A stretch of 64,000 nucleotides of DNA from Scilla litardierei. Taxonomy: Eukaryota; Streptophyta; Magnoliopsida; Asparagales; Asparagaceae. The notes under the pieces are model-generated. The model was not told the DNA's origin and searched no databases. It saw nothing but the letters and a program-made list of their open reading frames with translations. Position 1 is the first letter of the stretch, and the number at the start of each line of letters is the position of its first letter. The stretch lies in the NCBI GenBank assembly GCA_030789695.1, contig CM061140.1, forward strand, positions 172,198,319 through 172,262,318. The letters run 5' to 3'. Below, one piece after another: positions 8,903-64,000 of this stretch. Position numbers and translations under genes: made by a program.

Positions 8903-9200
8903 ATACATAGGAGACTGATGTATAGATTCATAGGAAATCTGCAAGCCTGAAGCTTGGTCAGATAAGGGGGTGTCAACTGCAGAGTTGTACTCTTTTCCCT
9001 TGGCTACAGGTTTTTTCCCACTGGGTTTTCCGTAGTCAAGGTTTTGACGAGGCAACCTCGTTGACTCTGGATCCTGAAGTATCCACCCCTAGACACATCC
9101 CCAAAACAGGGGAAGTTATGGGTTAACTGTTCTTTCTTTAACAAGACAGTTACCCTAACTCGGATCCTGAAGAATCCACCTCTTATTTCAATGTTGATTG

Positions 9201-9212
9201 GATAAGGGGAAG
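9201..9212 (+). promoter_or_regulatory. Polypurine tract of the Copia element
   Basis: gataaggggaag directly abuts the 3' LTR, the expected place for the plus-strand primer. Confidence 0.8.
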
Positions 9213-9332
9213 TGTTATGAATAGGCCCAATGGGCCAATTGGGTATCCAACCCACTATTGAAAGATATAAATACACGGGTAGGGGGCTCTTAACCCCTTA
9301 CACCTATTTCTCCCTAAATTCCCTTCACAACA
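9213..9332 (+). repeat. Copia 3' LTR (120 bp)
   Basis: Same length as the 5' LTR with one substitution. A TATA box copy lies at 9266-9273. It is followed by the target duplication agtgg at 9333-9337. Confidence 0.95.
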
Positions 9333-9337
9333 AGTGG

Positions 9338-31300: not shown

Positions 31301-32578
31301 GTGTGTACGTTTATGTGTGTGTGCATGCATTGAGAATTATATCCATCTTAACAAATTTCTTTCTTTTAGTTCAAATTTTAGGGACGATTCTTTCTTTATA
31401 CTTCTTATTTTTGTCAGTTTTATTGAAGTACTAAAATCAGCTTGAGTTCTTTATTCCAATTCTAATTTTGATGTATCCGGAACTGACATCGTACACCAAT
31501 TATCTCATTTCTTTTGGAATTACTTGTCCAGTATTTGTGTCACGTGTGATACTGTATTTTATCTTGTCTGGGTAATGAAGTTTGGAACAGTAGACCCCTT
31601 GTTCAAGACAACATGCAGATTTACCACCGGTATTTTGCAGGCATGATTCTCTTGTAATGGTGAGCGGTGGCAGCGGAATCACCCCCTTCATTGCGACAAT
31701 CCGAGAGCTCATCCATCTGAGCACGACTCCCAATGCTCCAACCCCCAGCATCCTCCTCATATGTGCATTCAAGACCTCAGCTGATCTCACCATGCTCAAT
31801 CTTCTTCTCCCTGTCTCCGGCAGCATCCCCATTATCTCCAAATTGCAGCTAAGAATTGAAGCTTTCGTCACTAGAGAAAAAACTCCAGCCTCCGATTCAC
31901 ACAAACTCATCCGTACAATATGTTTCAAGCCCAACCCCTCGGATCTGCCCATCGCTCCTGTCCTTGGCCCCAGTGGATGGCCTTGGCTTGGTGCCATAAT
32001 CTTATCATCCTTCCTTGCGTTCCTTGTTCTCATCGGCATCCTGACTCATTATTATATTTACCCGATCGAAAGCACAGGCGCTACCTATTCTTGGACATCG
32101 AGGGCTCTCATGAACCTGCTCGTGATGTGTTTGTGTATTGCTGCAACCTCTAGTAGTGTTGTCATGTGGAACAAGAAATGGAGCATGATAGATGGGAAGC
32201 AAGGGCGGATGTTAGATGAAACAACTCCGATGATGTCTCTGAGCTCTTGGGCTGATAACGGTGATCGAGAGCTGGAAAGCTTTCCTTGCGAGTCTCTTGC
32301 TCAAGTTACCAGGGTCCATTATGGAACAAGGCCCGATGTTAAGAGTATGTACCTCCTTTTCTAGCCATCCTTTTCTTTAATGCTGCATTTCTAGTCGATA
32401 TAGAACGGGTTGATATGGATTATGTCTTTGAGGTGCAGATATGCTTCGGGAGGCTGATGGATTGAGCGTAGGTGTGATGGCCAGTGGACCGATTGGGCTG
32501 CGTCGCGATGTTGCAGCCATTTGCTCTTCTGCTCAGGCTGATAATCTGCACTTCGAATCTGTTAGTTTCTGTTGGTGA
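19366..32578 (+). CDS. FRO: Ferric-chelate reductase of the FRO family, eight exons
   Basis: Exons: 19366-19546, 19637-19736, 28130-28324, 30075-30309, 30405-30732, 30809-31049, 31641-32344, 32439-32578. Together they make 2124 nt, 707 aa, with every junction GT-AG and in frame. FRO2-type reductases reduce Fe(III) chelates across a membrane, using NADPH, FAD and two hemes. The N-terminal membrane segment is LLLGLMFLCWLLIWVM. Heme histidines are at 207 (KYHLWLGH) and 221 (TTHG), and at 281 and 294 (YTH...LLHVG). FAD-binding HPFT starts at 369, NADPH-binding GGSGITPF is at 436-443, and the C-terminus is NLHFESVSFCW. Length and exon number match the Arabidopsis FRO2 type. The start at 19366 was chosen because the conserved membrane segment follows closely. 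I cannot tell which FRO paralogue or membrane it serves. Confidence 0.88.
19899..20081. mobile_element. Near-perfect hairpin MITE C (hAT-like ends)
   Basis: Two arms of about 86 bp are almost exact inverted repeats separated by a loop of only about 7 bp (attctag). The ends read tagggatgag...ctcatcccta, like many plant hAT MITEs. gtgaa flanks both sides (19894-19898 and 20082-20086). The arms contain smaller palindromes (gggcatgccc, ccaattgg). ORFs on the two strands across it encode the same peptide simply because the sequence is a palindrome. Confidence 0.8.
20090..20386 (-). other. Protein-like open stretch of unknown origin
   Basis: A minus-strand ORF reads through this stretch into hairpin MITE C. 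The part outside the MITE has a reasonable amino-acid mix (RRTYAPDQVLHKMEQKM) and could be a relic of a coding sequence that the MITE entered. I recognise no family, and it may be chance. Confidence 0.2.
22262..23040 (-). pseudogene. Antisense relic of an unidentified gene: two exon-like blocks in FRO intron 2
   Basis: Reading the minus strand, block 1 (23040-22942, 99 nt) is preceded by an acceptor-like AG and followed by GTAAAA. Block 2 starts at 22537 after tgtttgcag. Both are phase 0 and read on well (DELMGTTDSISHACACKIL, then DKVHLKVQERWSLLVPPSD and GDVKWILRFGPSRVIMKDSH). An in-frame TGA at 22339-22337 interrupts block 2, and similar-quality sequence (EREDYEKKLAILEAINSEI) continues to 22262. 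I do not recognise the family. It could be a captured or decayed host gene fragment. Confidence 0.4.
23794..25607 (-). mobile_element. Solo LTR of a Copia (SIRE/Angela-like) element in FRO intron 2
   Basis: TGTTGGG...CCAACA ends are flanked by a perfect 5-bp duplication taaac (23789-23793 and 25608-25612). The text resembles the LTR at 36209-53800: the ggatcatgta start, an atcatcaaaa block near the end, and gtcgact motifs within. Length is 1814 bp including a SINE insertion of about 194 bp with its duplication. Minus orientation is inferred from similarity to the gag-bearing element at 60.7-64 kb. Confidence 0.75.
24566..24742 (+). mobile_element. tRNA-derived SINE nested in the solo LTR
   Basis: It is flanked by a perfect 17-bp duplication aaagatttaagactatt (24549-24565 and 24743-24759). 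It has an A-box-like tggcatattggt, a weak B-box-like gggtttgatgg, and a short A tail. The insertion is 177 bp. It is a different family from the SINE at 9921. Confidence 0.75.
26215..27510 (+). mobile_element. Truncated LTR retrotransposon: 5' LTR, primer site and part of the leader
   Basis: The LTR is about 26215-26584 (TGAT...ATCA, ~370 bp), with a TATA-like ctatataaag near 26350. Three bases later comes a perfect initiator-Met primer site, TGGTATCAGAGCC (26588-26600). After it the DNA becomes C-rich and then GC-rich to about 27500. An ORF at 26874-27182 shows no recognisable domain. No second LTR or pol is seen, so the 3' part is lost. Confidence 0.65.
26588..26600 (+). promoter_or_regulatory. 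tRNA-Met(i) primer-binding site
   Basis: TGGTATCAGAGCC is complementary to the 3' end of plant initiator tRNA-Met and begins three bases after the LTR. Confidence 0.85.
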
Positions 32579-35200: not shown

Positions 35201-35209
35201 CCCCGGTGA

Positions 35210-36208
35210 TCAAGGGCAAAGGAAAGTGAATTGCTACGCGCACGACCGGTTTTACTTTACACACTACTAGTTATTTACATGTTTGCCATTACTCCCGTGC
35301 ACGACCCACTTATTTACAAGTGAGTTGCACGGCCGTGCGACACAAGCAGTTAACTACCAAGTGTTTTGGCCCGACCGTGCCAAACACAGTATAGGATTTG
35401 GCACGGCCAATCAACAAGGACCGGTTCAGAAGATTGGCATGATGGTGCCAAAACAATGCAGAACTAGGCACGGTCGAGCCAATACGACAATAGTTATGCT
35501 CAAGAATTTGGCACGACTGTGCCAGCTTTGACACAACCATGCCAAATCGTAAAATATGGTTTCGACTTAATTTTTATACCCAAATTAGATGGGGATGACT
35601 AGGCATATAAATACCCGTTTTGTAGAGGGGATTGGACACGTTTTTTTCTTGGTTATTTTTATTGTAATTTTGACGGCTACTCTTCTTACTTTTGGAGACT
35701 TTTGTTCAACTTTCTTGGTGAACAAGGATTGAAGACTTGGAATCTTATTGCTTTGATCAATTAGTAACTATTTCTCTTCCCTTTTTCTTTGAATTTATTA
35801 TATCACATATGAATTGCTTGGTTGTTTTCGCTATGATTTGTGAGTAGTCATCTTGTCTAGGGTTGAGTTGAATCCTATCATGGATGATTATATGAATTAA
35901 TCTCTTTCTTCTCAAGTTATTGAAGTAATTGATTATGGTTTTGTCTTGGATGTTCATATTATTATTATTTTTTCTTCTTGATTTGCTTTCAATTGACAAA
36001 TCACCAATAAGAGTTGGGGTTTTGATTTGATGTACATTGAGGGTTAAATTAATTTCTACGCATTTAAGATTATCAACGAGAGTTGGATCTTAAATTAGAG
36101 CTTCTCGACATTGATCTCACTTCTCCCATGAGAGTGGGCGAGAACAACTGTTGGGAATTATTTATTATTGATTTTAATACATTTATCATGATTTGGAAAC
36201 CACGAGAG
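35210..36208. mobile_element. Left part of a Tat/Athila-like Gypsy LTR (level 1 of the nest)
   Basis: The sequence runs from inverted ggcacg/cgtgcc repeats (35283-35550) through a TATA-like catataaata (about 35605) into a transcribed-type region (cttggtgaacaaggattgaag). It resumes beyond the nested insertion at 53801, ending near 54048 after gctacgataactcgtacgcttgcgg, which is typical of Tat/Athila LTR ends. The exact left border and target duplication were not found. Confidence 0.45.
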
Positions 36209-38777
36209 CGTTAGGATCATGTATACTATTCAACACACACTAGAGAGAGGTGAATAGTGTAGTGGTAATTAAAAATGCTAATTAAAATTAATTAAGCAAG
36301 TGCGGAAATATAATTGCAACACATTTAATAATCACACAATAACAATCACAAACACACGATGTATCCTGCTTCGGCTACGCCTACTCCAGTCACACACTCG
36401 TAAACCCAAGATGTTGATTTCCACTAAATGCATCATAACTGGAGCAACACTACTCAGCACAAGTACAATCCCTAAAGCGGGATACAAGGAGTAAACCCTC
36501 CCTAAGATGGAGCAAACCCTCAAATTTGGGGTAAACCTCCAAAATGCTCTCATAACCTGAGAGCTAGGTTAAAATGAAATGTAAACAAATTAACACTCTT
36601 ACCTAAGACTTGTAGATGATCTTATAACCACATGCAGTGAAGGCTAGGATGAGTGAAAAACCAAGTGCTTGAAAGTTCTGGCGGCTTGGAAGAAAAACAC
36701 TCTTTGAATTAAAACTCTTTTGAAGAGAAAGAGAACATTGGAAAGCTTGGAAAGCTTGGAAAACTTAGAAAATGTTCTCTAATAGATAATAATGGATGCA
36801 AAAACTATCAACAAATCCTCTTTAAGTAGACTTCAAAAAACTGTTCAAAAATATGGACCAAAACCCCTTACAATGGAAAAGGCGACAATTTTCCGTAAAA
36901 GTCGGAACTGTATTTTTTCCAGCGGTAGTCGACCTCTGTGTTAAGGGTAGTTGTAACGCCCCGCTCCCCGAAATACCCGATAAGTGCGAATCCGTATCAG
37001 ATATTCCCGAAGAGGCGGGTGTTACGAAGGAAATGCAAAAAAATTTCAAAACACAGGCAGGCCCACTGTGCACTGCTGGGGTAGTACCTGTAGCATTCCA
37101 GACATCACAGAAATACAAAAAGAGCCATCAACTCAAACACCAGTATACATATATAAGAACTGTTCAATTACAACATCAATTACAAATCTCATATACATTA
37201 TATAATCCAACTCACCCAAATACATTATCACACCCAAATCTCTCTCAATCTCACTCCCACACTTAAAACCAACCAACGGGGCTCGTGGGCCTCTGACTCC
37301 AAGATCCAACACCTGAAAAATAATAATGGGACACGTCACATCGTGACCCAGTAGGATGTCCAAACCCAACTTACATGGTACACAAAAAAAATGCTCTACT
37401 CTAGCTAACAACAGAAACTATCTCATGGCATATCACAATAAGCGCAAACGAAAATGTAGATAGTATCATTTCCAAACACGTACCTGCGACAAGAGGATAA
37501 CCTGCAAAACCAAGTAAGTAGGACATATAGAGAAATGAACTGCATTATTAATGAACTGAAACTTGTCATTACAACCTTTGGGCTACAACATATATTTCAA
37601 GCTTTAGGCCATTTAGCATTCTTAGCAAATTAAAACATTCCTTAACCACTTATGCCAACTCTAATAACCAACATATACCTAAGATGGAAAGTATGTCAAA
37701 CATTAGTAAATTTTAGCCTACCTTCCGAGGAAGGATTTAATCCCTGGCATTATCAACTAATTGTACATCTAACATAAGTGGATAATAATGCAATCATGCT
37801 ACACATAGGTTTTCACAAATGCTAACTTTAATTAAGAAGACCAAGAAGGGTTCCAACTTTTGCATAATTGGGCTATTTACTTAAGGAAGGAACGTTGGAA
37901 ATTTTGTAGGGAGTAACAAGTAAAATTTTGGGTATTATTCCTAGCTTAAGTGTCTAATACTTCGGATGTCATGGAATTCTTAAAAATTTCGGCAGAGTTT
38001 CTCTTGTATTTTCCAATCTTTTCCAAATACAACACAAATAATTTTTACAAGAAACCTGCTTGATTCATAAGACAAATATAACAACGATTAAGAAGTATAA
38101 AAGAAGTGCCTTGATGGAAAAGGCATGCATTAAAATTATAAGCCAACATACCCACTTTAAGCTCTTTGATGTAAAACAACATTCAATTCACTAGCTTCAC
38201 AATTTCCCAACAAAATTCCAACAAGACTCATATTCCAACAAACTCAAGGACAAGTTGAATTAGCAACCATTAATTCACATGAAATGGAGAGTGCGCAACT
38301 CTACTCCCATTAACACAATTTGCCATGAAGTTAGTAACTTGGACATAACCTAGAAGAAATGACTAATTATAGCATGACTAGTTCATTCAAAAGACACTAA
38401 GCATCAACTTTGGTAAGAATCACCACCTACATGCAAAAGAGGGCAGTTTGCATATTATTCAATAAAGTTTCCAAGATCTCATTGAGTGTAGCCAATGAAG
38501 GGACTAACTACGCAAGGGTGCCAACTTGCTCATGGGTTCTCAATCAAATGAACTTCTTGAACACCAAGTCTTAATACTTGGCAAGGGCAATCTTAACATC
38601 TCCAGGAACTAAAGTGGCCAACTAGTTAGCAAGGCCCTTAAGGACATTACCCTAATAGAAGTACAACATCGAATTAGGAAGGATGGAAACTTGCACTAGG
38701 TTCTTAAGTAAAACAACAATATCTCAACAATTAAGACCATTAGTAACTTGACGATCCAAATTACTTGGAAAGGAGTT

Positions 38778-41184
38778 TGTCACGACCCACTTCCCTAAAA
38801 TGGAGGCGAGACGTGAAAAGGTCCGCACGGGAGAGGAGCTATGAAGCCCCAAACCCGATAAGCGTCAATGATACATAAGCAGGTCCCTGTAACCACAACA
38901 GAATAACAATAATAACACAAGGAGAGACTGAAATAAAATCTCACATCTCATACAATGTCCAACAAGAAAATAAGTTCAACATCCAGAAAAGCCACCAGGC
39001 TAAAAGAAAAGAGTCTAAAGGCCCAGAACAAGGCCAACACAAGCAATAACAACAACAAAGTATCGGTGCTACGCACCGATAACAAAACAACTGTCTAACA
39101 AAAGTAAAACACGACGAAGACACTAGGACTGGTCTCCAGTGTCCACGTACTCCCCGTCAAACACAAGCACGGGCTCGGCGTCAGCAAACACCTCGTCCTC
39201 AACAAGTAACTCAGGCTCGGGCTCTAACATGTGTCACCCAAAAGAGAAAAGGGGCACATGTCAGCAAGTCGAAAGACTTGTGCAAGGAAACAGGAATAAT
39301 GGTAAACTAGCAACCTAGCAATTAAAACATGGTTCATGGCAAGTAAAGTACGGTGGTAACAAGTAAGGTAAAGGAGAGTACAAGTGGCAAGTATCAAGTG
39401 GTAGGGGTGACATGTAATGTCAAGTAACAAGTAAGGTACAAGGGATCACTCAACGAGTGCCCTATTGCCCGCAGGCTGTGTTCAAGTATCAAGTACAAGG
39501 GGTCACTCAACGAGTGCCCTATTGCCCGCAGGCTGTGATGAGCTCGTCTTCTGGAACACGAGCCAGAAAGTGTATTTGATAAGTATGGCGTAGGGGTGCA
39601 CCTAGCCGGAACAAGTAGCACTAGTATGTAGCGATGCTACGCAATCACGATGAGTATTCAAACATGCAATGACATGAGCAGTTAATACGCGTACTGTTAA
39701 TTGTATTTAAACGTGACAGGCAAAATGCAATGACATGAACATATTCGCGTACCGTTAATTAAATTAAACATGGCAGTTAAAATGCAATAGCGGTTAAGGA
39801 TGCATGGATGACATGAGCAGTTAATACGCGTACCGTTTAGGGAAATTAAACGTGACATACAAGCATGATGAGGGTGACGGACCAAGCTTCGTTGTCAAGC
39901 TAGGTCAATGGCGTCTAAACGGTTATCCTTTCACCGTCTAGTCTCTTTTACGCTAAAGCAAGGTAAATGGCCTAAAACATGGCCTAAATCAAGAGATGCA
40001 AGTTTCACTTGCCTAGCACCGGGGATGGCGACTACTTCGTCACACGGATGCCAATCTATGGGGAAAATCACTGTTATGGGGGAACAACCATCAAACACCA
40101 TGAAATTTATTAGGGTTTCATAAAAATACCAATAGACTATGAAAACATAGAGGAATCGATTTCTTACCAAGAGGAGACGGGAAGAACACTCCGGGGAACC
40201 CTAGGATCAGATCTGGAAAAGATTGGAGAAGTTTGGGAAAACTAGGGTTTCGGGGGATTTGGGGATTTTGATGGGTTTTGGTGAGATTTTGGGGAAGATG
40301 AGAGGTAGATGGAGTGAATGGATGGTTTGGATGATGGATTTAGGGCTTGGAATGGAGAAATGAAGCTTGGAGGAAGATGGGGGCTGAAGGGGGAAGATTT
40401 TAGGGTTTTGGGTCGTGTTGGAGAAGAAGAAGTCGTTTGGGTTGGGTTTAAATAGGTTGAGCTGGCGGCTACCCAGAAATTAGGGTTTTAACACTGGTTA
40501 GTCGGTCAAGGAGCAACCACTGACCGACTAGTTTGGCAACTAGTCGGTCGGTCGACCAACGCAGACCGACTAAGTGCAAACAGTAACTCCTGAACGAAAA
40601 TAGGATTCTAGAGTTAGTCGGTCCATGAACAAGTACTGACCGAATAGTTTAGCATCTAGTCGGTCGATGAACGTTCTTAGACCGACTAAGAGTAAACAGT
40701 AGCTGTTACAAAAATAAGATGATGAGTTAGTCGGTTAAAGAAGCATTGCTGACCGACTAGTTTGCAACCTAGTCGGTCAACCAACGTTCTTAGACCGATT
40801 AACGATAAACAGTAACTCCTGAGAAATTTAGAAAGCTAACTAGTCGGTCCAAGAAGGATTGCCGACCGACTGGATCGTCATCTAGTCGGTCGGTGGCCCT
40901 TCTTACACCGGCTAATGAGCACCAAAAGTTCCGATACGGAGCGCGGGGCCCCGGGATCGATTCCTAAGACTCCTAGGCTTGATCTAATAGTTAGATACGA
41001 CCGTTATGAAGTCCGTCACGAGTGACACACTTCGAAATCGATGATCCTAAGGAAGAAGCGAGAAAATACGACGAATCGATCGGAAATGAAAGCTACGGAG
41101 ACGAAAACCACACATGAGGAGAAAATCCACCAAAACATATATTATATTATATTAAATCCAGATACATGAAAAGCAGTCGTTACA
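38778..41184 (-). repeat. Chromovirus 3' LTR (2407 bp)
   Basis: On the plus strand it starts tgtcacgaccc and ends cagtcgttaca. It carries a four-unit array of tagtcggtc/gaccgacta hairpin motifs (about 40497-40920) and a TATA box on the minus strand at 40447-40454. Confidence 0.95.
40497..40920. repeat. Array of about four ~110-bp units with paired tagtcggtc / gaccgacta motifs (in the LTR U3)
   Basis: Each unit has tagtcggtc, ~20 bp, gaccgactag, ~12 bp, ctagtcggtc, ~15 bp, gaccgacta, then a ...aaacagta... spacer. Every unit can therefore form two hairpins. The same array is in the other LTR at about 47734-48157. In the element's own direction it lies upstream of the TATA box. Confidence 0.85.
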
Positions 41185-41194
41185 TCCTCCCCAA
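41185..41194 (-). promoter_or_regulatory. Chromovirus polypurine tract
   Basis: On the minus strand ttggggagga lies directly before the 3' LTR, the expected site of plus-strand priming. Confidence 0.85.
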
Positions 41195-41230
41195 CTTAAG
41201 AAAAATTCCGTCCTCGGAATTTCCAAAAAC

Positions 41231-44200
41231 TCACGAGTCCGGAAACAAAAGTGGGAAACGCTCTCGCATCTCATCCACATTCTCCCAAGTAGACTCTCCA
41301 GGTGAACCGTGTCGCCACATCACCCTCACAAGATTGACAATCTTGTTCCGAAGCGATTTCTGACGCCTGTCCAGAATTTGCACTGGATGCTGGTCATACG
41401 TCAAATCGGGGCGAACGGTAATCTCCGAAAAATCCACCGCATGAGACGGATCGCTAATGTATCGACGAAGCTGCGACACATGGAAAACATTGTGAACTCC
41501 TTCCAAAGACGGCGGCAAGGCCAAGCGATAAGCTACCTCGCCAACCCTCTCCAAAACGTCAAACGGTCCAATGTATCGCGGGCTCAACTTCCCACGCTTC
41601 CCGAAACGAATCACACCACGATTCGGGGAAATCTTCAAGAACACATGGTCGCCCGGCTGAAACTCCAAAGGACGACGTTTAGCATCCGCCCAATGCTTAA
41701 AACGGTCCTGAGCAATTCTCAACCTCTCCCGAATATTCCTGACGATATCCACGGCCTCCACGATCATCTCAGGTCCCAACAACTCCCGATCACCAACGTC
41801 ATCCCAACTCAATGGCGATCGACATTTCCTCCCATAAAGAGCGGCGAAAGGTGCCATGCCAATACTCGCCTGGAAGCTGTTGTTGTAGGAGAACTCCACC
41901 AAATGCAGATGGTCCTCCCACGAACCCTTGAAATCCAACATGCACGCCCTCAGCATGGCTTCCAAAATCTGAATCGTCCTCTCGGACTGGCCATCCGTCT
42001 GCGGATGGTACGCCGTGCTGAAACTCAGACGCGTACCCAAGCTCTTCTGCAAACTCTGCCAGAACTGAGATGTGAACCTCGTGTCTCTGTCCGACACGAT
42101 GCTCACGGGGATTCCGTGAAGTCGCACAACCTCCTGTACGATTCACGTTACATCACTATCCAAACTAGGAAAAGGAAATAAAAACGGAGGGTAAAAGAAT
42201 TTTATCTCCATATATCTCCTCGCTAGCGCCTCAGTGGACTGTCCCACTCGGAATGGAATAAAGTGCGCAGATTTGGTCAATCGATCTACGATCACCCAAA
42301 TCGCGTCATTCTGCTTCGGACTCCGGGGTAGTCCAGTTACGAAATCCATAGTGATGTGTTGCCATTTCCACTCCGGAATCGGAAGCGGTTGTAGCAACCC
42401 GGCTGTTCGCTGATGCTCCGCCTTCACTTGCTGGCAAACCAAGCACTTGGCTACACTCTGAGCCACACTCCTCTTCATACCATGCCACCAATAATTCAGA
42501 CGAAGATCCTGGTACATCTTGGTGCCACCAGGATGCACAGAATACGGCGAACTGTGTGCCTCCACCATCAGCTCCTCTCTAATATCCCCAGCTGGCACAC
42601 ACAACCTGGCTCCAAACCTCAGCGAGCAATCCTCATGAATCAAAAAGTCAGTCTGCAGACCGGCTCCCACCTGCTCCCGAATCTTCACCAGCCTCGGATC
42701 CTCGGCCTGGCCAGCCTTAATCTGATCAACGATCGTCGACTGTACCTGCATGTACATCAACGATGAAGCCTCTCCAGGAAGAACAATCTCCACACCAGAC
42801 TCGCAAAAATCCTGCTGCAATCTCCACTGCGAGGTCAAAATCATCACCGCTGGAAGCCTACTCAAAGCATCCGGAACCACATTCACCTTGCCAGGGTGAT
42901 ACTGCAAATCAATCTCATAATCCGCCATAAGCTCCAACCATCGACGCTGTCGCATGTTGAGCTCCTTCTGAGTGAAAATATACTTCAAGCTTTTGTGATC
43001 GGTGAAAATCTTCACTTTCTCACTCAGCAGGAAGTGCCTCCAAATCTTAAGAGCAAACACGACGGCAGCCAACTCCAAATCATGCGTCGGATAATTCTTC
43101 TCATGAACCTTAAGCTGACGAGACGCATACGCCACAACATGCCCGTGCTGATGCAACACACAACCGAGACCCTTGCCAGAAACATCGCAAAAGATCTCAA
43201 ATCCACTGCTGCGATCAGGCACAACAAGAATAGGGGCAGTCGTCAACCTCTCCTTCAGAATACCAAAAGCACTCTCACAATCACCCGACCAAACAAAAGC
43301 AACATCCTTCCGCGTCAACCTGGTCATCGGCTCAGCAATACGAGAAAAGTCCTTAATGAATCGCCGATAATAACCAGCAAGTCCAAGGAAACTCCGAATC
43401 TCAGACGCAGACGACGGAACAGGCCACTCCCTGATGGCCCGAATCTTCTCGGGATCCACTGAAATACCATCTCCAGTCACCACATGCCCGAGAAAAGCAA
43501 CTCTATCCAGCCAAAACTCGCACTTCGAAAACTTAGCATACAAACGATGCTTCCTCAAAATTTCCAACACCGTCCTCAAGTGCGAGGCATGCTCCTCCTC
43601 CGACTTCGAATAGATCAGAATGTCGTCAATAAAGATAACGACAAACTTATCCAAAAAGTCGTAGAAAATCAGATTCATCAGATTCATGAAAATTGCGGGC
43701 GCGTTGGTTACGCCGAAAGGCATAACCACAAACTCATAGTGTCCATACTTCGTCCTGAACGCTGTCTTCGGAACATCTCCCTTCTTCACCTTCAACTGAT
43801 GGTAACCACTCCTCAGATCCAATTTTGAAAACACCCTCGAACCTCCAAGCTGATCAAAAATATCATCGATGCGAGGCAACGGGTATTTATTCTTAATGGT
43901 CACCGCATTCAACTCCCGATAGTCCACGCACATGCGACGCGAACCATCCTTCTTCTTAACCAGCAACACCGGTGCTCCCCACGGAGACACGCTAGGATTA
44001 ATATAACCCTTCTGCAAAAGCTCATCCAACTGCTTCCGCAACTCTTCCAACTCTGCAGGTGCCATACGATACGGCGCCTTCGAAATCGGCTGCGCACCTG
44101 GAACAAGGTCGATAGAAAATTCCAAAACCCGATCAGGCGGCAAACCAGACATCTCCTCGTGGAAGACGTCGCCAAAATCTCGCACCACAGCTGGCCACTC

Positions 44201-44625
44201 CAGCTCCATCTGCATATCCACAGCCTCCACCGGCCTGGCCCGAAATCTGACAGGACCAAGCGAACTGCTACCACGACTGAACTCAAACACTGGGTGTCCG
44301 GGAATCTCGAACACCACCTTCTTTCTCTTGCAGTCAATCGTAGCATAGAAGCTCGCAAGCCAGTCCATCCTAAGAACTGCATCATAGTTGATGATGTCGT
44401 GGACAATGAAATCAGCATAAAGCTCACGTCCACAAACCACCAACGGGCAAGAATTGCACCCACGATGCACCGAGACGACACCGTTCCCTGTGACGATATT
44501 CCAACTCTTAGGAAGAGAGGACGTCGACAAGGAATGCTTCTCCACGAAGCTCCGGGCCAAAATGCACATCGATGCACCAGAGTCAAAGAGGACTCGTGCA
44601 GGAAATGTGCAAACCAAAACCACAC
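41231..44625 (-). CDS. pol: Chromovirus Pol: protease, reverse transcriptase, RNase H, integrase, chromodomain-like tail
   Basis: Domains in order on the minus strand are: protease with VLFDSGAS; reverse transcriptase with CVDYRELN and catalytic FIDDILIYS; RNase H with [23 protein letters not shown] and [12 protein letters not shown]; integrase with the HHCC finger (H...H...CLVCQQVK) and core residues in [18 protein letters not shown] and DGQSERTIQ; the C-terminal LSPRYIGPF region; and a chromodomain-like tail ([24 protein letters not shown]). The frame is open except for one TGA (42145-42143) inside a 72-nt extra segment of the integrase (about 42208-42137). The coding block starts at 44625, the exon after the apparent intron, in the same frame as gag. 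Confidence 0.9.
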
Positions 44626-44739
44626 CTAACAAGCAATTAACAATCAAATCCTAGTCTAGCAAACAATCATGAGCAAGCAACCAATATAATCAAAATTTCA
44701 AACTAACTAAGGAAGATAAATAGCTAGAATGAGCATTAC
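44626..44739 (-). other. Apparent 114-nt intron between gag and pol of the chromovirus
   Basis: On the minus strand the donor is gcag|gtaatg (intron starts at 44739) and the acceptor is gcttgttag|gtgtgg (exon resumes at 44625). The segment is AT-rich, is a multiple of three and contains the gag stop TGA (44692-44690). Removing it joins DEVIAG to [17 protein letters not shown] in frame, which is the expected Tekay-type Gag-protease junction. Confidence 0.7.
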
Positions 44740-45871
44740 CTGCAATAACTTCATCCACGGCCATGCTCTCCTCCTCAGTCATCAGAAAGGCCTGCCCTCT
44801 CGGCGGAACAGCCTGCCGAAAGGCCTGTCTCTGTGGAACAAGGGGCGCTCCACGTCCAACGGGCACAGGAGCTCGCTGCTGCAACGGCTGTGCTGCAATA
44901 GGAGCCCGCCAAGGCTGTCTCGACTTCGGACACTCCCGGATGGTGTGGGCAGGATCTCCGCAGACAATGCACTGTCCTAGAAACCTCCTACACTGATCCC
45001 TGAGGTGTCCAGTCTTGCCACAGAAATGGCAAGTCTTCAGAATAGGCCCTCCTGGCCTCTTGAACTGCACCGGATGACTAGGCTTGTAACCAGGCCTAAC
45101 CACAGCCCTGGCCTGCTCCATAGGCCTCTTCCCAGCTCCGGAAACATGTCCCTTCCTCTGATTCAAATTCAACTCTTGCCGCCTCGCAGCAATCAGAACT
45201 TTCTGATATGTCTCCAAGTCAGAAGAGGTCACAAAGCTCTGAAGCTCCAAGGCAAGTCCCTGGAGAAATCGCTGAGCTTTCTCATCGGCATCCTGCACCA
45301 TCTTAGGTGCAAACCGACTGAGCCTCGTGAACTCCTGATGGTACTGATCCACCGTCAAGCTTCCCTGCTTCAGATCTATAAAGCGCTGCAACATCACTTG
45401 CCGAGCAGCCTTCGGGAAGAACTCTCCATCGAATCTGGACTTGAAGGTAGCCCAGACGATCGGCTCCACCAGCATCTTCTCTTCCGCATCCCACCAATTC
45501 CTGGCGTTGTCCTTCAGCTGCCTCTTAGCCAGATCAACCCATCCAGCCGGGTTAATCTTCGCCATTGCCAAGTTATCCTCAATGTTCCTTATCCACTCGT
45601 CGGCAGCCAGAGGACCCTCAGAACCATCAAAATATGCGGGACCCAGCTCCCGAAATTGCTTCGCTCCCGGCTCAGAGCGAGGGGCATCCGGAAGAGCCCG
45701 GGCAGCTCGAGCAAGTGGAGCATTCTGGACTTGCAGAAGCACGCCCTGCTGCACTTGCATCATCTGGAGCATCATCCGCATCATCTCACCGCTGGTGGGT
45801 TCCCGCTCAGGCTCCTCATCATGAGGGATCGCGCCACTACCCCCACCACAGGTGAAACGTCTTCCTGCCAT
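44740..45871 (-). CDS. gag: Chromovirus Gag
   Basis: It starts at the ATG 45871-45869. It would end at TGA 44692-44690 (393 aa) if unspliced, but the family-like part stops at 44740. It has a Retrotrans_gag core (AADEWIRNIEDN, LKDNARNWWDA, FKSRFDGEFFP, LTVDQYHQEFTRLSRFAP), then two CCHC zinc knuckles at residues 281-294 (CHFCGKTGHLRDQC) and 301-314 (CIVCGDPAHTIREC). A Pro/Gln-rich linker leads towards protease. It forms the particle and packages RNA. Translation of the unspliced RNA would give Gag alone, and of a spliced RNA Gag-Pol. Confidence 0.9.
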
Positions 45872-46014
45872 CTAGTGACACAGAAAACGATTCAGATTAG
45901 ACTCATAGCTTATGACTCGGACGTCGAACTTAATTTATTGGACATTCTAATATTATTATCGCTATTCCAAAAATCGCAGTTACAGAAGGACCTGCATGGG
46001 CCACCAACAAAACC

Positions 46015-48421
46015 TGTCACGACCCGCTTCCCTAAAATGGAGGCGAGACGTGAAAAGGTCCGCACGGGAGAGGAGCTATGAAGCCCCAAACCCGATAAGC
46101 GTCAATGATACATAAGCAGGTCCCTGTAACCACAACAGAATAACAATAATAACACAAGGAGAGACTGAAATAAAATCTCACATCTCATACAATGTCCAAC
46201 AAGAAAATAAGTTCAACATCCAGAAAAGCCACCAGGCTAAAAGAAAAGAGTCTAAAGGCCCAGAACAAGGCCAACACAAGCAATAACAACAACAAAGTAT
46301 AGGTGCTACGCACCGATAACAAAACAACTGTCTAACAAAAGTAAAACACGACGAAGACACTAGGACTGGTCCCCAGTGTCCACGTACTCCCCGTCAAACA
46401 CAAGCACGGGCTCGGCGTCAGCAAACACCTCGTCCTCAACAAGTAACTCAGGCTCGGGCTCTAACATGTGTCACCCAAAAGAGAAAAGGGGCACATGTCA
46501 GCAAGTCGAAAGACTTGTGCAAGGAAACAGGAATAATGGTAAACTAGCAGCCTAGCAATTAAAACATGGTTCATGGCAAGTAAAGTACGGTGGTAACAAG
46601 TAAGGTAAAGGAGAGTACAAGTGGCAAGTATCAAGTGGTAGGGGTGACATGTAATGTCAAGTAACAAGTAAGGTACAAGGGATCACTCAACGAGTGCCCT
46701 ATTGCCCGCATGCTGTGTTCAAGTATCAAGTACAAGGGGTCACTCAACGAGTGCCCTATTGCCCGCAGGCTGTGATGAGCTCGTCTTCTGGAACACGAGC
46801 CAGAAAGTGTATTTGATAAGTATGGCGTAGGGGTGCACCTAGCCGGAACAAGTAGCACTAGTATGTAGCGATGCTACGCAATCACGATGAGTATTCAAAC
46901 ATGCAATGACATGAGCAGTTAATACGCGTACTGTTAATTGTATTTAAACGTGACAGGCAAAATGCAATGACATGAACATATTCGCGTACCGTTAATTAAA
47001 TTAAACATGGTAGTTAAAATGCAATAGCGGTTAAGGATGCATGGATGACATGAGCAGTTAATACGCGTACCGTTTAGGGAAATTAAACGTGACATACAAG
47101 CATGATGAGGGTGACGGACCAAGCTTCGTTGTCAAGCTAGGTCAATGGCGTCTAAACGGTTATCCTTTCACCGTCTAGTCTCTTTTACGCTAAAGCAAGG
47201 TAAATGGCCTAAAACATGGCCTAAATCAAGAGATGCAAGTTTCACTTGCCTAGCACCGGGGATGGCGACTACTTCGTCACACGGATGCCAATCTATGGGG
47301 AAAATCACTGTTATGGGGGAACAACCATCAAACACCATGAAATTTATTAGGGTTTCATAAAAATACCAATAGACTATGAAAACATAGAGGAATCGATTTC
47401 TTACCAAGAGGAGACGGGAAGAACACTCCGGGGAACCCTAGGATTAGATCTGGAAAAGATTGGAGAAGTTTGGGAAAACTAGGGTTTCGGGGGATTTGGG
47501 GATTTTGATGGGTTTTGGTGAGATTTTGGGGAAGATGAGAGGTAGATGGAGTGAATGGATGGTTTGGATGATGGATTTAGGGCTTGGAATGGAGAAATGA
47601 AGCTTGGAGGAAGATGGGGGCTGAAGGGGGAAGATTTTAGGGTTTTGGGTCGTGTTGGAGAAGAAGAAGTCGTTTGGGTTGGGTTTAAATAGGTTGAGCT
47701 GGCGGCTGCCCAGAAATTAGGGTTTTAACACTGGTTAGTCGGTCAAGGAGCAACCACTGACCGACTAGTTTGGCAACTAGTCGGTCGGTCGACCAACGCA
47801 GACCGACTAAGTGCAAACAGTAACTCCTGAACGAAAATAGGATTCTAGAGTTAGTCGGTCCATGAACAAGTACTGACCGACTAGTTTAGCATCTAGTCGG
47901 TCGATGAACGTTCTTAGACCGACTAAGAGTAAACAGTAGCTGTTACAAAAATAAGATGATGAGTTAGTCGGTTAAAGAAGCATTGCTGACCGACTAGTTT
48001 GCAACCTAGTCGGTCAACCAACGTTCTTAGACCGACTAACGATAAACAGTAACTCCTGAGAAATTTAGAAAGCTAACTAGTCGGTCCAAGAAGGATTGCC
48101 GACCGACTGGATCGTCATCTAGTCGGTCGGTGGCCCTTCTTACACCGGCTAATGAGCACCAAAAGTTCCGATACGGAGCGTGGGGCCCCGGGATCGATTC
48201 CTAAGACTCCTAGGCTTGATCTAATAGTTAGATACGACCGTTATGAAGTCCGTCACGAGTGACACACTTCGAAATCGACGATCCTAAGGAAGAAGCGAGA
48301 AAATACGACGAATCGATCGGAAATGAAAGCTACGGAGACGAAAACCACACATGAGGAGAAAATCCACCAAAACATATATTATATTATATTAAATCCAGAT
48401 ACATGAAAAGCAGTCGTTACA
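46015..48421 (-). repeat. Chromovirus 5' LTR (2407 bp)
   Basis: Same length as the 3' LTR, with about a dozen visible substitutions. A TATA box lies at about 47684-47691 on the minus strand. The DNA just inside the element (45990-46014) shows no clear match to the usual initiator-Met primer site; tggtggcccatg, about 8 nt in, is the nearest TGG-starting candidate. Confidence 0.95.
47684..47691 (-). promoter_or_regulatory. TATA box of the chromovirus 5' LTR
   Basis: tatttaaa on the minus strand (tttaaata on plus) lies after the hairpin array and before a pyrimidine-rich 5' UTR-like stretch. Confidence 0.55.
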
Positions 48422-51400
48422 GAGTTAGCTTGGGCTAATGGGGTGTGAAATAATGTAATTTTGGCCTTAAGTTAAGATATTAATAACAATGCCAACACTA
48501 ACAATAACATCAATAACCACTACGACAATGTCATCAACAATAACATAACATCCACAACAACATTTACTTCAAGGGAAGGAAAACACAACTCCACCCCAAA
48601 TTCATCTTCTAGCAACCCCCAAACCCCACTTTCCAACATATAACCATTTCAACATATAATGCATTCATGGCAACTTTCATTCTCATAAAGCAACAGTCAC
48701 ACATATTGATACATTACCCCAATCACACAAATGCTCAATGATGCAATGATGCGCATGAATCACAAGCAATACGATGCAATGCAATGCAATGGGGATCCCA
48801 TGAGTGAGCCGGCGTGCATGTGCAAATAATTCTACTCCGTTATCAACGTGGAGCCACCGAATGGATCAAGAGGTGGCCAACGGCGTATTCACCTGCCTCC
48901 TACCGCGGCACTTTGTCCATGCCCGTGCACTCCACTTCGTGTCCTAATGTGACCAAGTCACACATTCCATATTCCACGTGTATCCAACACCACACCGCCA
49001 ATTTTCCCATCTCTCTTACATTTCATATAATCTTCATTTCATGCAAATTAAATGAACTTCATTTCATGCAAATTAAATCGAGTAAATCATTTCCAACAAG
49101 CCAAAATGAGTGCAACTTCATTCATTCAATGTAATGAGATGAGAACAATTGCATTTAGTCAATGGAACCGAAAGCGAACAATTTCATTAATGAAAGAAAT
49201 TCCATAACACGCGAGCAATTATAACTCCCCATGTTTAATTAGAGTTATTCCACAGAACTAGCGGCTCAAATCATTCAAGGGCATCATCAACATTGACATA
49301 GCAATTTATGGCGTTATATAATTCATTGCAACATACACAAAGCAACTATCCATAGCCAAGTTTACATAAGCATTTCATTACCAAATATTGCATGACATAA
49401 TCTCACCCCACACAACATGTGAAACCTTAGTCGAAGGCACATCTCAATACTATGTCACAATTTCATACATTCTACACGAAGAGAATTTCCCAATGAAACT
49501 TTCAACAATTCAAATGAGAGCTCTCAATTAAATGGGAGCTTCTAAGATTTAATAATGAGGCCTCCAACATCGTACATTTTCATTTTCATAGCTTCTAAAA
49601 TTCATTTTCATTCTTCTTACTAATGAGGCTTCCAATATTTATATTAACATAACCACCAACAAAATTAATGAGGACAAGTTGAGGACAAATTTACAAAATT
49701 AGTGAAGCAAGCTATTCAATTGCCTCATAAACATAAACATCATAGTTCATGGTATCATATAATTCCATACAACAAATAGCTTCTATATGGATGCATCATG
49801 CCAAGAAATTTCCAACAAAACCCCTAAAAATGCAAACTTTAGTCTCAAATCCAATAAAATCAAACACATGAGTAGGGTTGGACTCCTACCTTTTGTAGAA
49901 ACTCAAATCCTCTCCCAATTTGATGAATTCCACCATTGATCTTTAAGCCCAAGCCCTAATTTTCGAAATCCCCAAAATCCTCCTCCAAATGAGATGAAAT
50001 CCTTCTCCACATTCATGAAAACCCAAGAATCCCCCAAGCTTCAACCCTAATCTCCATCTTCCCCCCAATTTCGGCAGCTCCCCAACAAATTTTGGCCATG
50101 GCTGTTCCCCAATTTCGGCCATGGAGTTGGGAGTGATGGTGAAGATGAAAGGATAGTTGGAAAGGGTGGCTTAGGGCTTACTTCTTCTTCTTCTTCCTTC
50201 TTCTTTCTTCCCGCCTTTCCTCTTCTTTTCTCCTTCTCCTTTTGCTTGCAAATTTTCGGCCATGGCCCTAGAATTCGGCCTGGGGAGTTGGCTGCGTTGG
50301 CTTTCTTTCTTGGGGAGAAAGTGAAGAAGGAGAAGAGTAAAGAATTAGGGGGAAGAATGTAGAAGGGGTTGTCTATTACAAGTTTGCCATTCCAACTAGA
50401 TCAAACCCTCTTCTCTCAACTAATAGTCTAGCCCAACTATCAAAACCCAATCAACAGTAACTAACAACAACCCAAGCCCATCTCTGGCTACCAAACTTAA
50501 TTAAGGCCTACACACTAGCAAATGAGAATATTAATCAACATTAATATTAAGAGACATTCTAATACCAATAATAATAAGAATTTCACCAATCATCAATAAT
50601 AATAATAATAAGATCTTTCAGTAATAATTATCTCAGTATCACCAATTATCATGAACACACCATTTCACGATACACACTTACCAACTAAAATTGCTAAGCA
50701 CGCTAACAAACACTGTTAGCACGCTAACAATAATTTCGATTTACCACCCAACCACACGCATTCACTTATATATACAACGCACATCATAGTCATACATGTA
50801 GGATTTTACTATACACACAATAAAATCGCTATACGCACATACGCACATAGTATTTCACACACACGAGCATTACAGTAGTCGACTTCTGGCAAAGCTGCGG
50901 TCGAATCCTAGAAGAGTTGCGGTCGAATCCTAGCTGCAACAGAGGGAAACTTGTATTCTCTTAAGAAAATAGCCTAATCTTATGAAAAAAATAGTCGACT
51001 GTTATGAGCAACATTGAATAAAAACAGGCATAACATGCACAAATGAACTCCGATTGAGGTGATTCAAGATGCGTTGGAAAGCTAATGAAATATGCAATCT
51101 AATGAGATAGGAATAGATGAGAAATTCCAATCAGAGAAAAAATAACAGATGTTAGAAGACTGAAACAGATTTCAGAAAAAAAGATACATGGATAAATAGC
51201 TTGAAATTGTTTGGGAAATTGTTTTAAATCATTTCAAAACTTTTTTAAAACATTTTTGTGAGTTTGAAAAGTGTTTTCAGGTATGAATGAATGCATATAT
51301 AAGGCATACAAAGCATCTAAAAATAAAGATAAAAATTAGACAATGAAGAGCATAATAATATATCTTTAAGATTGTGCATGCTTTGCAATAGCCTTGAGCT

Positions 51401-51526
51401 AACACTTTCCTCTTTGACTCATCATTCCAAGCATCTCTCCTTTGATTCATCATTCCAAGCATCTCATGACTTTGTCTCAATTATGAAATGAAATGAAATT
51501 TAATTTGAGACTAAAACGAATAAAAT

Positions 51527-53727
51527 TGTAACGACCCACTCTCGGGGTCTGTTACTGTTTGGAACATGCACAAGTCCTGCTTGACACCAATGAAGTCAAC
51601 ACAGGCTCTGTTGCAGAAATATGCCAAAATACTCAGACATGAAAATGGTTTACAAACTTAATACAATCCAGCAGCGTACATGAAAGGAAAATACAACTGA
51701 AAAATAGATGATACATCAAGCCACTCTGAAAACAACAAAGCAAGTCTCCCATACTCACTCTCAATACCCAGTGTCCTGCTGGTCAAACTCACCTGCAAAC
51801 TCAGCGTCTGCAGTCTGTGGTGCGAACTCTTCAACCTGAGAGATATCTGGCTGGTCCATCACAAAGAGAAGGGTCGCCAGGATCAGACGTAACTCAAAGT
51901 ATCTCTAAGCATGGATATTAAAACAATGTATAAGCATGGAAATCTAAACAGAAGTAAAGTGCAAACAATAGTGGTAAGGTAAAAAGAACAGAAAGTAACT
52001 TTACAGTTTTACAATTATCAGCAATTTCTAGCAGTTAAATGTACACTATTAAAAGTGACCATGTTACAAAAGTCTAACTGTGCCGTACCTAGACTGTGAC
52101 TTATAATGTGGGGTACAGTAAGCAACCAATAGTCCACCTCTTACCACGGGTGCTACCCGGGCGAACAAATCTCTGAGAAATGTGAAATAATCTATGATCT
52201 GTGATGGTTGTCACCGGCTACTGTGATGGGTTGCTAGAACCCGCACGGTGACAACAAGGCCTGAACTAGTCGCTCCCGCACCGTCACTATTATGAGTTAC
52301 CCCAAACCCAGTGTCTATGCTGGTTACCATAGTTGCAATTTACGAGTCATTTACTATTCACACATTTCTAGTTACATCTTCCTGTCAAGCAAGTCACGTA
52401 GTCCAATTCGATTTCTTTTACGATACTGTACAATTTACGAGTTTATCTAACAGTTCAAAATGGAAACACTATGAAATCGAAATGACACTAGATTAGCATG
52501 CATTTATTTTTGTCTTAACACCCATAGCAAGGATACGATGAGTTACCGATACGTTGCGTCGTTAATGCGTGGTCCAATCAGCGGTAGCGTTACCTGCTTC
52601 ACACGTGTTACATGACAAATTAGTTACTCAAACTAATAGTAAAACGAATAACATCATTATAACTAAGTTCAAGACTTAACTAATTTATTAACTTAACTTA
52701 TTAAAAATCATAACTTAAATTTAATTAATAACTTATTTTATCACTTATATTAAAACTTAAAACTTATATTAAAACTTTATGTAATAACTTATCTTAACAT
52801 ATATTATTGACTTAAACTTATATAACAAATTAACTTAAGTTATAAAATAAGTTTTCTTTAACATAACTTACTTTAGTCGGTAACTTATATAATAATCTTA
52901 TATAATAACTTAACCAAAACTTAACTCATATAACAAATAACTTAACTTATACTAAAAATAAACTTTTATAATAAATAAACTTACTTTATAAAACTAACCT
53001 AATAAAACCTAACTTACCCCTCTCTCTGTCTCTTCCTCTCGTTCTGCTCTTTCTTCTTTTTTTTTGTTTCTTTGCAGGTGGGCACCGGCGGGGAGGGAGC
53101 AGCGGTAAAGGGGGGCCGGCGGCGGGCTCTGGCAGGGGGCGGCGACCAAGTGCGCACGGGCCGGGAGCGGCGGTGCAAAGGGGGGCCGGCCTGGGGGTAC
53201 GATGGCGGCGGCGACCCGTTGGGCGGCCGAGAGGGCAAGGGGAGGGGCTGTGCGTGGCTTTGGGAGGAGGGGCAAGGGATTTGGGGGATTTGGTTGTTGT
53301 AAGGTTTAATTCCAATTTCAATTTCAGCTTCTCCCTCTCTTAATCTGATTTGGTTGTTTGATTTGGGTGATTGGTTGACGGAGGGGGAAGATGATGAGGT
53401 TAATGACGATGAAGTGGTTTGTTTCCCGTTGGGTTGAAGGAGGGGGGATGATGAAGAATGGGATAGTGAAGGGGGTTATAATGAAAGGAAACCCCAACGG
53501 TTGAGGGTGGGGTTTGATTAACTGATATGTTGGATCTCACCAACATTGTAGGATGGCAATGGAGGGTGGTTACCGACAGATGAAAAAGGAGGGGGGTTTA
53601 GGGATTAATTAGTTGGGGGGGTAATAGTAATAGGCTATGGCGGTAATCAAAATAGCAACTCGGACTACCGAAAGTGAAATACAGACACACTACGACCAAA
53701 CATGCCTAAAAAATACCGGTCGTTACA
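51527..53727 (-). mobile_element. Gypsy-type solo LTR, 2201 bp (level 3b)
   Basis: It starts tgtaacgacccactc and ends ccggtcgttaca. Flanks are aaaat and caaat, a 5-bp duplication with one mismatch. The left part resembles the chromovirus LTR in layout, so it is probably a related Tekay-like family in the same orientation. It contains a 340-bp AT-rich tract dominated by aactta (52650-52985), then a sharp change to GC-rich DNA (53080-53230). ORFs in the GC-rich part are low-complexity and not genes. Confidence 0.75.
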
Positions 53728-53800
53728 CAAATCATTAGCAATAATATAATGTGGTGATCATCATCAAAATTATATTGGGCTTAATGGCCAATATTTAACA

Positions 53801-54050
53801 GAGAGTAGGTGTCATCTCATGATTTGACTCTTGAGATCAATTTTATGATTAATTCATGATAGTGGATATACTTAACCCTAGTGTTTTTCCCTATTTGATA
53901 ATCTTTTAATAAAAATCCCATCACTCGACCAAAAATTGTGAAGCTAACTTGTAATCTGGAATTGGCTAGTATTTAGTCCTAATTTCCCTAAGATCGACCC
54001 ATTTTTGCTACGATAACTCGTACGCTTGCGGTAAATATTTAACTCAATAA
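53801..54050. mobile_element. Right part of the Tat/Athila-like LTR (level 1)
   Basis: It continues the LTR from before 36208. The first five bases are the duplicated gagag of the level-2 insertion. It ends with the typical tcgtacgcttgcgg phrase near 54037. Confidence 0.45.
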
Positions 54051-60732: not shown

Positions 60733-60965
60733 TGTTAATTCAGTACGCAGTAATAATCAATAAAGCCAAAGGATCAACACAAATCAATCAAAGACACACA
60801 AGACTTGGTAACGCAGTTCGGTGCACACACCTACATCTGCGGGACAACGCCCAGAAAATCAGAATACTTCACTAAAATAATCAATGAGTACAATCACTAA
60901 TTATCGCGATTCTATTAGGAGGAACAACCTCCCCCTCAATACAAACCGTGATGGGTGGTCTCTAC
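60733..60965 (-). repeat. Truncated 3' LTR of the SIRE/Maximus-like Copia element
   Basis: It begins tgttaattcagtacgc and aligns with 63395-63627 until ggtctctac, after which the two differ. Only the terminal ~233 bp of the LTR remain. Confidence 0.7.
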
Positions 60966-61310
60966 ACATCCAGAGGCTCCTCTGTCTCTCTTATTAGTAA
61001 ATAAATCCTCAGGCACATCGGAATAAGAGGAAGAACACTATACCTCACATTTGACAGTAGGCTGTCCAAATGGAATGATATCCAGTGTAGAAGTCAAGCT
61101 CTGAGGGGCCGAAAGAGAAATCGAGTTAAAGACATCGGCGGTGCTGACAGAGAGCCTTCGGTGATCTGCATGTCAAAATTTGGAGACATGGATGCGGTGG
61201 AAACGGCGAAGAAGTGGACAGAATTTGGTGAAGTCAGCCGGTGTAGGTGAAGAGGCCGTGAAAGATAGAACAGCGATGGATTGCCGTACTGGAGAAGGTA
61301 GATGCAAAGA

Positions 61311-63319: not shown

Positions 63320-63380
63320 GATTCAAGTACTGAAATCCAAGATCAAACCCTCTTTGATAAAAAAGTAACACGGGTGACCT

Positions 63381-63392
63381 GCTCTGGTACCA
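63381..63392 (-). promoter_or_regulatory. Primer-binding site of the SIRE-like element
   Basis: tggtaccagagc on the minus strand lies two bases from the 5' LTR end. It is the initiator-Met site with one change (T to C at the sixth base). Confidence 0.75.
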
Positions 63393-63394
63393 AT

Positions 63395-64000
63395 TGTTAA
63401 TTCAGTAACGCAGTAATAATCAATAAAGCCAAAGGATCAACACAAACCAATCAAAGACACCCAAGACTTGGTAACGCAGTTTGGTGCGCACACCTACATC
63501 TGCGGGGCCATGCCCAGAAAATCAGAATACTCCACTAAAATAATCAATGAGTACAATCACTAATTATCGTGATTCTATTAGGAGGAACAACCTCCCCCTC
63601 AATACAAATCGTGATGGGTGGTCTCTACCAAACCGTGGAGTATTCTCGGTAAGCTCCCCTTGCACAACCGACTAGATCAACTCCCTTGATCCTCATGCGT
63701 AGCCGTCGGCCTCCGTCCCCGGATGTTAAAAATCGCAAGATCCCCTTGCACCACCAACTAGAATCAACTCTCTTGACTCCTCCACCGTCGGCCTCCCTCC
63801 TGGAGTTCTTCGATCAACTTTCGCAAAAGCCGTGCCCTAGCCGCAAAACTGCGCAGCCCCTATATACTGCGCTCCCCATGATTGCGGAGTAGATATGAAA
63901 GTTCGGTGCGGATTCGACAGCCCGCAAGAATCTGAACCAATTCGGGCAATTGGTTCCGCATTAAACAACTGATTTGCGGATGAGAATCTCTCCAACCGAT
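63395..64000 (-). repeat. 5' LTR of the SIRE-like element (partial, runs off the window)
   Basis: It begins tgttaattcagtaacgc on the plus strand. The first ~233 bp match 60733-60965; the remainder continues beyond the right edge. Confidence 0.75.

Follow-up and report, generated by a model that had tools for sequence, protein, structure and literature searches.

A 64,000-nt stretch of the Scilla litardierei genome (GenBank assembly GCA_030789695.1, contig CM061140.1, positions 172,198,319 to 172,262,318 of the forward strand; hereafter the window) contains long terminal repeat (LTR) retrotransposons inserted successively into one another four deep. The innermost, a chromovirus that we call L4, belongs to a very abundant family whose polyprotein appears to be split by two spliceosomal introns. 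We put the probability of this joint reading at roughly 0.85. The two-intron layout, reported for few plant retrotransposons, was missed by an earlier annotation made from the sequence alone (the first-pass annotation) and is more interesting than the nest itself. Copies of each element were sought in the species' own genome assembly (3.68 Gb; assembly G000, in which the window's contig is C11); the similarity searches scored the best 40 candidates each, and up to 30 loci were cut out per element.

Two conserved inserts divide the L4 polyprotein

L4 occupies 38778–48421 on the minus strand, inside the LTR-only element L3. Its LTRs lie at 46015–48421 (5' in the element's sense; placed by self-comparison and a scan for target-site duplications (TSDs)) and at 38778–41184 (3'; 2407 bp, 99.5% identical to its partner), and a sequence scan placed a polypurine tract (PPT) of 8 purines beside the latter, at 41185–41192. 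Gag (44740–45871; Pfam Retrotrans_gag, 1.1e-16) is accompanied by a pol region in the Ty3-type order protease, reverse transcriptase (RT), RNase H and integrase (Pfam RVP_2, RVT_1, RT_RNaseH and Integrase_H2C2). The integrase end carries an SH3-like domain (Pfam SH3_Tf2-1, 3.4e-28), and Pfam Chromo matched at the expected C-terminal place with an E value of 0.0034, below the curated cut-off, as it did in the related protein P0003 (E 0.0022). Among the relatives listed, P0035 (74%) and P0003 (71%) had the highest identity, and searching with gag yielded 4 proteins out of 7997 candidates. No initiator-Met primer-binding site (PBS) was recognisable beside the 5' LTR (45981–46014), where the best match to the 12-mer that we take to represent it had 5 mismatches in 12. 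When viral contigs were scanned with L4 pol, 2 stretches fitted the pattern, and neither could be confirmed to be a relative.

The gag-pol frame is broken twice, by a 114-nt insert at the gag/protease boundary (44626–44739) and by a 72-nt insert within integrase (42134–42205). Between them lie protease, RT, RNase H and the N-terminal part of integrase (42206–44625; 71% to P0003), and beyond the second lies the C-terminal part of integrase with the SH3-like domain and the weak chromodomain match (41231–42133; 76% to P0003). The first insert runs between CAG/GTAATG and TTAG/GTG (slashes mark its borders) and holds two in-frame stops in the window copy. Gag homology to P0242 ends in the donor codon and protease homology to P0003 starts right after the acceptor codon; four in-frame GT..AG pairs would skip both stops, and one of them fits both borders. 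The second insert ends in GTACAG; of its two flanks, one aligns to P0003 as far as residue 850 and the other from residue 849 onward. The A+T content is 0.69 in the inserts versus 0.41–0.50 in flanking exon.

The insert regions were fetched from 10 further places, and matches were obtained in 8. Both inserts, with GT..AG ends, were present in all 8 copies compared. The first measured 112–114 nt (113 nt in 6 copies) and the second 71–72 nt (71 nt in 6 copies); every copy had in-frame stops, two to three in the first insert and one in the second. In the exons, third codon positions differed most from the window (0.031 versus 0.009 and 0.013; 0.081 versus 0.013 and 0.012). The flanks thus behave as coding sequence, and the inserts are non-coding by their stops and lengths. 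Decay as the source of the stops in L4 pol was rejected because the copies show conserved inserts. Both inserts are short and AT-rich, have GT..AG ends and occupy fixed positions in the coding sequence, and spliceosomal introns are their best interpretation.

Presence and absence of the inserts across the genome

For the whole-genome counts, short words flanking each insert were matched exactly, and backward-pattern controls of these searches gave 0 matches. The words flanking the gag/protease insert were 110–125 nt apart at 578 places; a spacing of 2–10 nt, corresponding to absence of the insert, was found for these exact words at 0 places genome-wide. The words flanking the integrase insert were 66–80 nt apart at 3622 places and 0–6 nt apart, with the insert precisely absent, at 280 places, or 7% of 3902. 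Applied to the first insert, this rate predicts about 41 absences among 578, and none was seen. At all 100 places listed for the insert-bearing gag/protease search (578) and all 100 listed for the insert-bearing integrase search (3622), GT stood right after the upstream word; nothing lay between the two words at the 100 listed insert-free integrase places. A separate search with the gag/pro region found all 40 scored copies (2910 candidates) near full length; the list favours such copies and is not a count.

Eight insert-free copies taken from the listed places were compared with the others. The integrase gap was exactly 0 in all eight, and the gag/protease intron was clean in seven (108–113 nt), its left edge being unplaceable in the eighth. 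Their gag pieces were 82–100% identical to that of the window. When the integrase flanks of 8 copies with the insert (including the window; L022, with a deletion of about 36 nt in the flank, was left out) were set against those of the 8 without it, there were 47 variable columns, with 0 fixed differences and 8 shared, and the group difference was reached by 117 of 2000 shuffles.

A putative splicing switch between Gag and Gag-Pol

The first insert was never seen absent, which fits a needed Gag/Gag-Pol switch, and the first intron probably acts as one. Unspliced L4-family RNA would then serve as both genome and Gag mRNA, translation stopping after gag, and spliced RNA would run on into protease to give Gag-Pol. 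The second intron would be dispensable and lost occasionally when spliced RNA is reverse-transcribed; its exact absence in hundreds of copies fits reverse transcription of spliced RNA. We see an even chance that this chromovirus family of thousands of copies uses host splicing as its Gag/Gag-Pol control and has repeatedly lost the integrase intron at the splice points through leaking spliced RNA.

Several observations weigh against reading the inserts as introns of a coding region. Among the 8 copies themselves, the excess at third positions was weaker (0.030 versus 0.016 and 0.019; 0.023 versus 0.012 and 0.012), and the inserts (0.020 and 0.021) varied no more than third positions. As we read them, the P0003 residues leave no room for AG exactly where the first intron has its acceptor, and the second insert of the window copy is without a canonical donor. 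Two of the 8 compared copies share one contig; of the 10 places fetched, 2 were unmatched at the expected offset, one of which has the gag/pro region on the other side. The genome-wide counts cover exact short-word matches only, and the places listed show the donor side and end before the acceptor. Splicing of both inserts is inferred from DNA sequence.

The best-surviving alternative concerns the direction of change at the second insert. Its absence could be the older state and its presence a later gain, P0003 and the relatives P0011 and P0023 being without the integrase insert. Under this alternative the integrase intron is a recent gain and the insert-free copies retain the earlier state, which we hold to be possible at less than even odds. 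The exon variants common to both groups argue against it, although RNA recombination could mimic that pattern, and so does the identity of the gag pieces of the 8 insert-free copies to that of the window. A recent gain spread by recombination stands as a tentative alternative to loss. That the inserts are not introns and serve as linkers, read through or recoded in translation, is very improbable: the window inserts are multiples of three and recoding between gag and pol occurs in some elements, but the in-frame stops in every copy, the prevailing lengths of 113 and 71 nt, the AT-rich composition with GT..AG ends and the 280 places precisely without the second insert all contradict this explanation.

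Because its second insert has no canonical donor, the window L4 is probably unable to produce a complete integrase through ordinary splicing; the element is structurally complete and likely not autonomous. If the integrase intron is indeed lost through spliced RNA, hundreds of naturally processed copies stand beside thousands of unprocessed ones in one genome. One intron that was not seen lost and one that is precisely absent in a minority of thousands of copies make it testable how genomic RNA stays unspliced. The frequency of spliced-RNA copying likewise becomes testable in the L4 family, which offers a natural record of intron loss or gain.

Comparison with known plant retrotransposons

In the accessible text of PMC3605345, Tekay/Del chromoviruses are described with a Ty3-type pol, a chromodomain-like C-terminal end, a 5-bp TSD and LTRs mostly of 2.5–3 kb. 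L4 resembles these elements (for example, Bongo of beet) in its Ty3-type pol, chromodomain-like C-terminal end, 5-bp TSD and long LTRs, as far as that text describes them, and differs from them in its two predicted introns and in the initiator-Met primer site, which was not found beside its 5' LTR. The accessible parts of PMC3605345, PMC1142308 and PMC9289625 describe no Tekay-type element with an intron. Among the titles and abstract openings listed in open-literature searches on introns in such elements, none shows an intron-bearing chromovirus; subscription papers lay mostly outside this search, and such a report may exist.

Plant LTR elements are generally intron-free, with Ogre and EVADE as notable exceptions, according to the accessible text of PMC12786077. 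The corresponding part of a plant element survey (PMC6317226) singles out Ogre and Bianca for open reading frames (ORFs) parted by a non-coding stretch, and states that the intron of Ogre, a Tat element, is spliced from only some transcripts so that a whole polyprotein can be translated. Ogre is a non-chromovirus and carries its intron between gag-pro and RT, whereas the chromovirus-like L4 has one insert at the gag/protease boundary and another inside integrase; L4 is thus no Ogre-type element, its inserts lying elsewhere than between gag-pro and RT and its pol being chromovirus-like. In the Ty1/copia elements EVADE and BARE1, splicing sets the balance of Gag to Pol (PMC12786077, accessible text). 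There, splicing yields a short Gag message; in the L4 family, by contrast with what that text describes, splicing would yield Gag-Pol and unspliced RNA would yield Gag.

Insertion sites of the nest are continuous in other copies

The first-pass annotation had proposed LTR elements nested at least four deep, to be checked by restoring each interrupted repeat against other genomic copies. This check was run: all five elements are present, and flanks join across the sites of L4, L3, L2 and L5, which confirms the nest. For L4 in L3, the flanks had the exact 5-bp overlap in 25 of 29 other L3 copies, lay within 10 bp of it in 3 more, and the remaining copy was without coverage of the site. For L3 in L2, both flanks were found in 26 of 29 copies, with no room for L3 between them in any; 8 of the 26 fell within 3 bp of the expected overlap (3 exactly) and the others were off by 6 to about 200 bp. 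The second LTR that the annotation had placed beside the third level, L5, lies within L2: of 21 copies having both flanks, 10 showed exactly the 5-bp overlap, 9 an overlap of 33–36 because their left match ends about 90 bp early, and 2 overlaps of -2 and -17. For L2 in the outer LTR, 10 of 39 other places listed were fetched, of which 9 pass directly from 36208 to 53801; in the tenth the junction is off by 1 bp. Nine of these 10 copies match 53806–53822 at no fewer than 13 of the 17 bases and retain at least four of the five TSD bases; a match of at least 12 of 17 arose once in 20,000 random 17-mers.

A short L2 repeat continues across the L3 site. Of 4922 random window pairs 27 scored at least as high, as did 6 of 2000 shuffles; this continuation test gave nothing at the L4, L2, L5 and outer borders. 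Within the window, a diverged L3-like LTR (18779–15252, minus strand) matches the left and right parts of L3 in three colinear blocks in order, with 0 other-strand matches. Another L3-like right end was seen at 59983–60093. It is the tests on genome copies, more than the chance figures for TSDs, that carry weight for the nest. That the nest is an assembly artefact of unrelated repeats joined at LTR borders is highly improbable: the analysis does rest on assembled sequence, but each inner layer has its TSD and empty sites elsewhere join at the exact base.

Four-layer nesting is ordinary for plants. For wheat 3B, PMC4290129 counts 30,199 nested insertions, the deepest of 8 layers. The nested LTR retrotransposons of maize and wheat show the same elements within elements and solo LTRs; the window holds nothing different in kind and is a four-layer case in another monocot. 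It is a base-level worked example of sequential insertion, with local value only.

Borders and target-site duplications

TSD scans required exact 5-bp repeats with TG/CA ends within 80 bp on either side of each element border. The duplications claimed at three levels proved exact: GAGTT for L4, GTAGT for L3 and GAGAG for L2. The L4 scan gave a single exact match versus 0.13 expected by chance (38773–38777 and 48422–48426), and so did the L3 scan (36947–36951 and 50875–50879; 0.13 expected). L3 itself comprises 36952–38777 and 48427–50874, a total of 4274 bp with its right end at 50874, inside L2; these parts were placed by the TSD scan and genome copies.

The L2 scan returned two matches versus 0.22 expected, with the wrong left end in both. 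The GAGAG reported earlier for this level holds, and the left border given with it does not: L2 starts at 36209, which is aligned in 26 of 29 copies (first matches in the other 3 at 36235–36267). The TG scan missed this start because the first L2 base of the window differs from 25 of the 26 aligned copies. On the right, the end could be placed in 19 of 29 copies, and these cease to match after 53800. Since L2 copies begin at 36209 and stop at 53800, the TSD GAGAG is 36204–36208 and 53801–53805, in agreement with the outer-LTR copies. The alternative border formed by GAGAG at 36130 and TGTTGGG at 36149 was rejected, both motifs lying inside the outer LTR with no TSD from 36149. L2 (minus strand) is therefore divided into a left part (36209–36951), a middle part (50880–51526), which adjoins the left part without L3 in 26 of 29 copies, and a right part (53733–53800). 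The label of L2 as a putative Copia-type element derives from its LTR ends. A PBS-like stretch, ataccaat, lies left of 4 of 26 L2 copies (L063, L064, L070 and L071) and also fits most chromoviruses.

L5 (51527–53727) has TGTAACGACC..GGTCGTTACA ends, and its nearest copy is 88% identical. The scans around L5 and the outer LTR found no exact 5-bp match; the L5 flanks aaaat (51522–51526) and caaat (53728–53732) agree at 4 of 5 TSD bases. The Athila/Tat-like outer LTR (plus strand) consists of a left part (35321–36208), which matches to 36208 in 8 of 10 fetched copies and to 36206 and 36204 in the other two, and a right part (53806–54049), with no TSD found in the border scan. Its 3' end at about 54049 is marked by 8 copies that diverge there; its 5' end at about 35321 is a weak border, given by one copy of 10. 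A start at 35207 was rejected. The stretch 35223–35321 resembles 19157–19058 at 72% and ends where the outer LTR apparently begins. The sequence from 53819 onward begins 97–100 bp past the site in 8 of 10 outer copies (it was not found in the other 2 fetched pieces), and the window is therefore without about 84 bp after 53822. One of 8 outer copies seen (L113) has a primer site next to the LTR end, which we take to be tRNA-Asp-like. A scan of viral contigs with a 25-mer of the outer LTR gave 0 matches.

Age of the layers and formation of single LTRs

The two L4 LTRs, 2407 bp each, differ at 12 sites (K2P 0.005). At 6.5e-9 to 3e-8 substitutions per site and year, L4 would have inserted roughly 0.08–0.39 million years ago. 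The innermost element, described earlier as intact and young, is thus young by its 12 differences, and intact in structure though not in coding frame. The best identity to another copy was 99% for the L4 LTR, 98% for L3, 88% for L5, 87% for the outer LTR and, over its whole query, 82% for L2. By this measure the layers appear young inside and old outside, though it does not separate L2, L5 and the outer LTR from one another; the outer LTR exceeds L2, contrary to such a gradient, hence identity gives no ordering of those two.

Successive insertion proceeded as follows. An old Athila/Tat-like LTR received the putatively Copia-type L2; L2 received two long-LTR elements, L3 and L5, both with chromovirus-like ends; and L3 received L4 roughly 0.1–0.4 million years ago. 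L2, L3 and L5 would have been reduced to single LTRs by LTR-LTR recombination at times unordered relative to the insertions. The order of events had been called directly readable; nesting does give the order of insertion but does not reveal when the solo LTRs formed, since an LTR-LTR crossover may precede or follow a nested insertion and keep the insert on the retained side. The claim of three solo LTRs from recombination between insertions is accordingly upheld for the single LTRs, by their ends and TSDs, and not for when recombination acted.

We infer from their ends and TSDs that L2, L3 and L5 are solo LTRs. It is very improbable that they are non-autonomous or truncated elements: the three have LTR-type ends with TSDs. 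L2 copies show a PBS-like stretch on the left in some and a PPT-like stretch on the right in others, as expected of the two LTRs of full elements, and in 5 of the 18 L2 copies with both ends, four or more of the five TSD bases agree, as in solo LTRs. The sides of these stretches also suggest that L2 lies on the minus strand.

Further L4-family arrangements and other features of the window

Each L4 LTR contains four degenerate tandem units of 113–116 bp, each with inverted GTCGGT motifs (40497–40930 and 47734–48167). Elsewhere in the assembly, G000:C3214 has three L4 LTR matches in a row at a spacing of about 7.3 kb, both at 70432–85708 and at 163866–179096; these rows would be LTR-body-LTR-body-LTR arrays, as from unequal recombination. 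Three gag/pro matches lie 7150 bp apart at C2:118962225–118976662. Six further gag/pro matches, alike in the printed part and spaced about 58–72 kb apart, were found at G000:C2:109060225–109380829, which is perhaps a large segmental tandem repeat carrying an L4-family element.

Outside the nest, a Copia element at 2703–9335 has LTRs of 124 bp (98.4%) and an apparent TSD, AGTGG, on both sides, its gag and pol being spread over three separate ORFs. A short element at 60733–63628 combines LTR-like repeats (about 234 bp, 95.3%) with a piece of Copia gag (62622–63002, minus strand); scanning two other ORFs gave no pol domain. Ferric-reductase/NADPH-oxidase-like exons occupy 30162–32364, about 3 kb left of the nest. 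An intact-looking DUF604/Fringe-like host gene lies at 11190–12734 and places the host in the monocots: the top-ranked named matches, with 61–79% identity, are from banana, yam, iris, Canna, oil palm and cattail.

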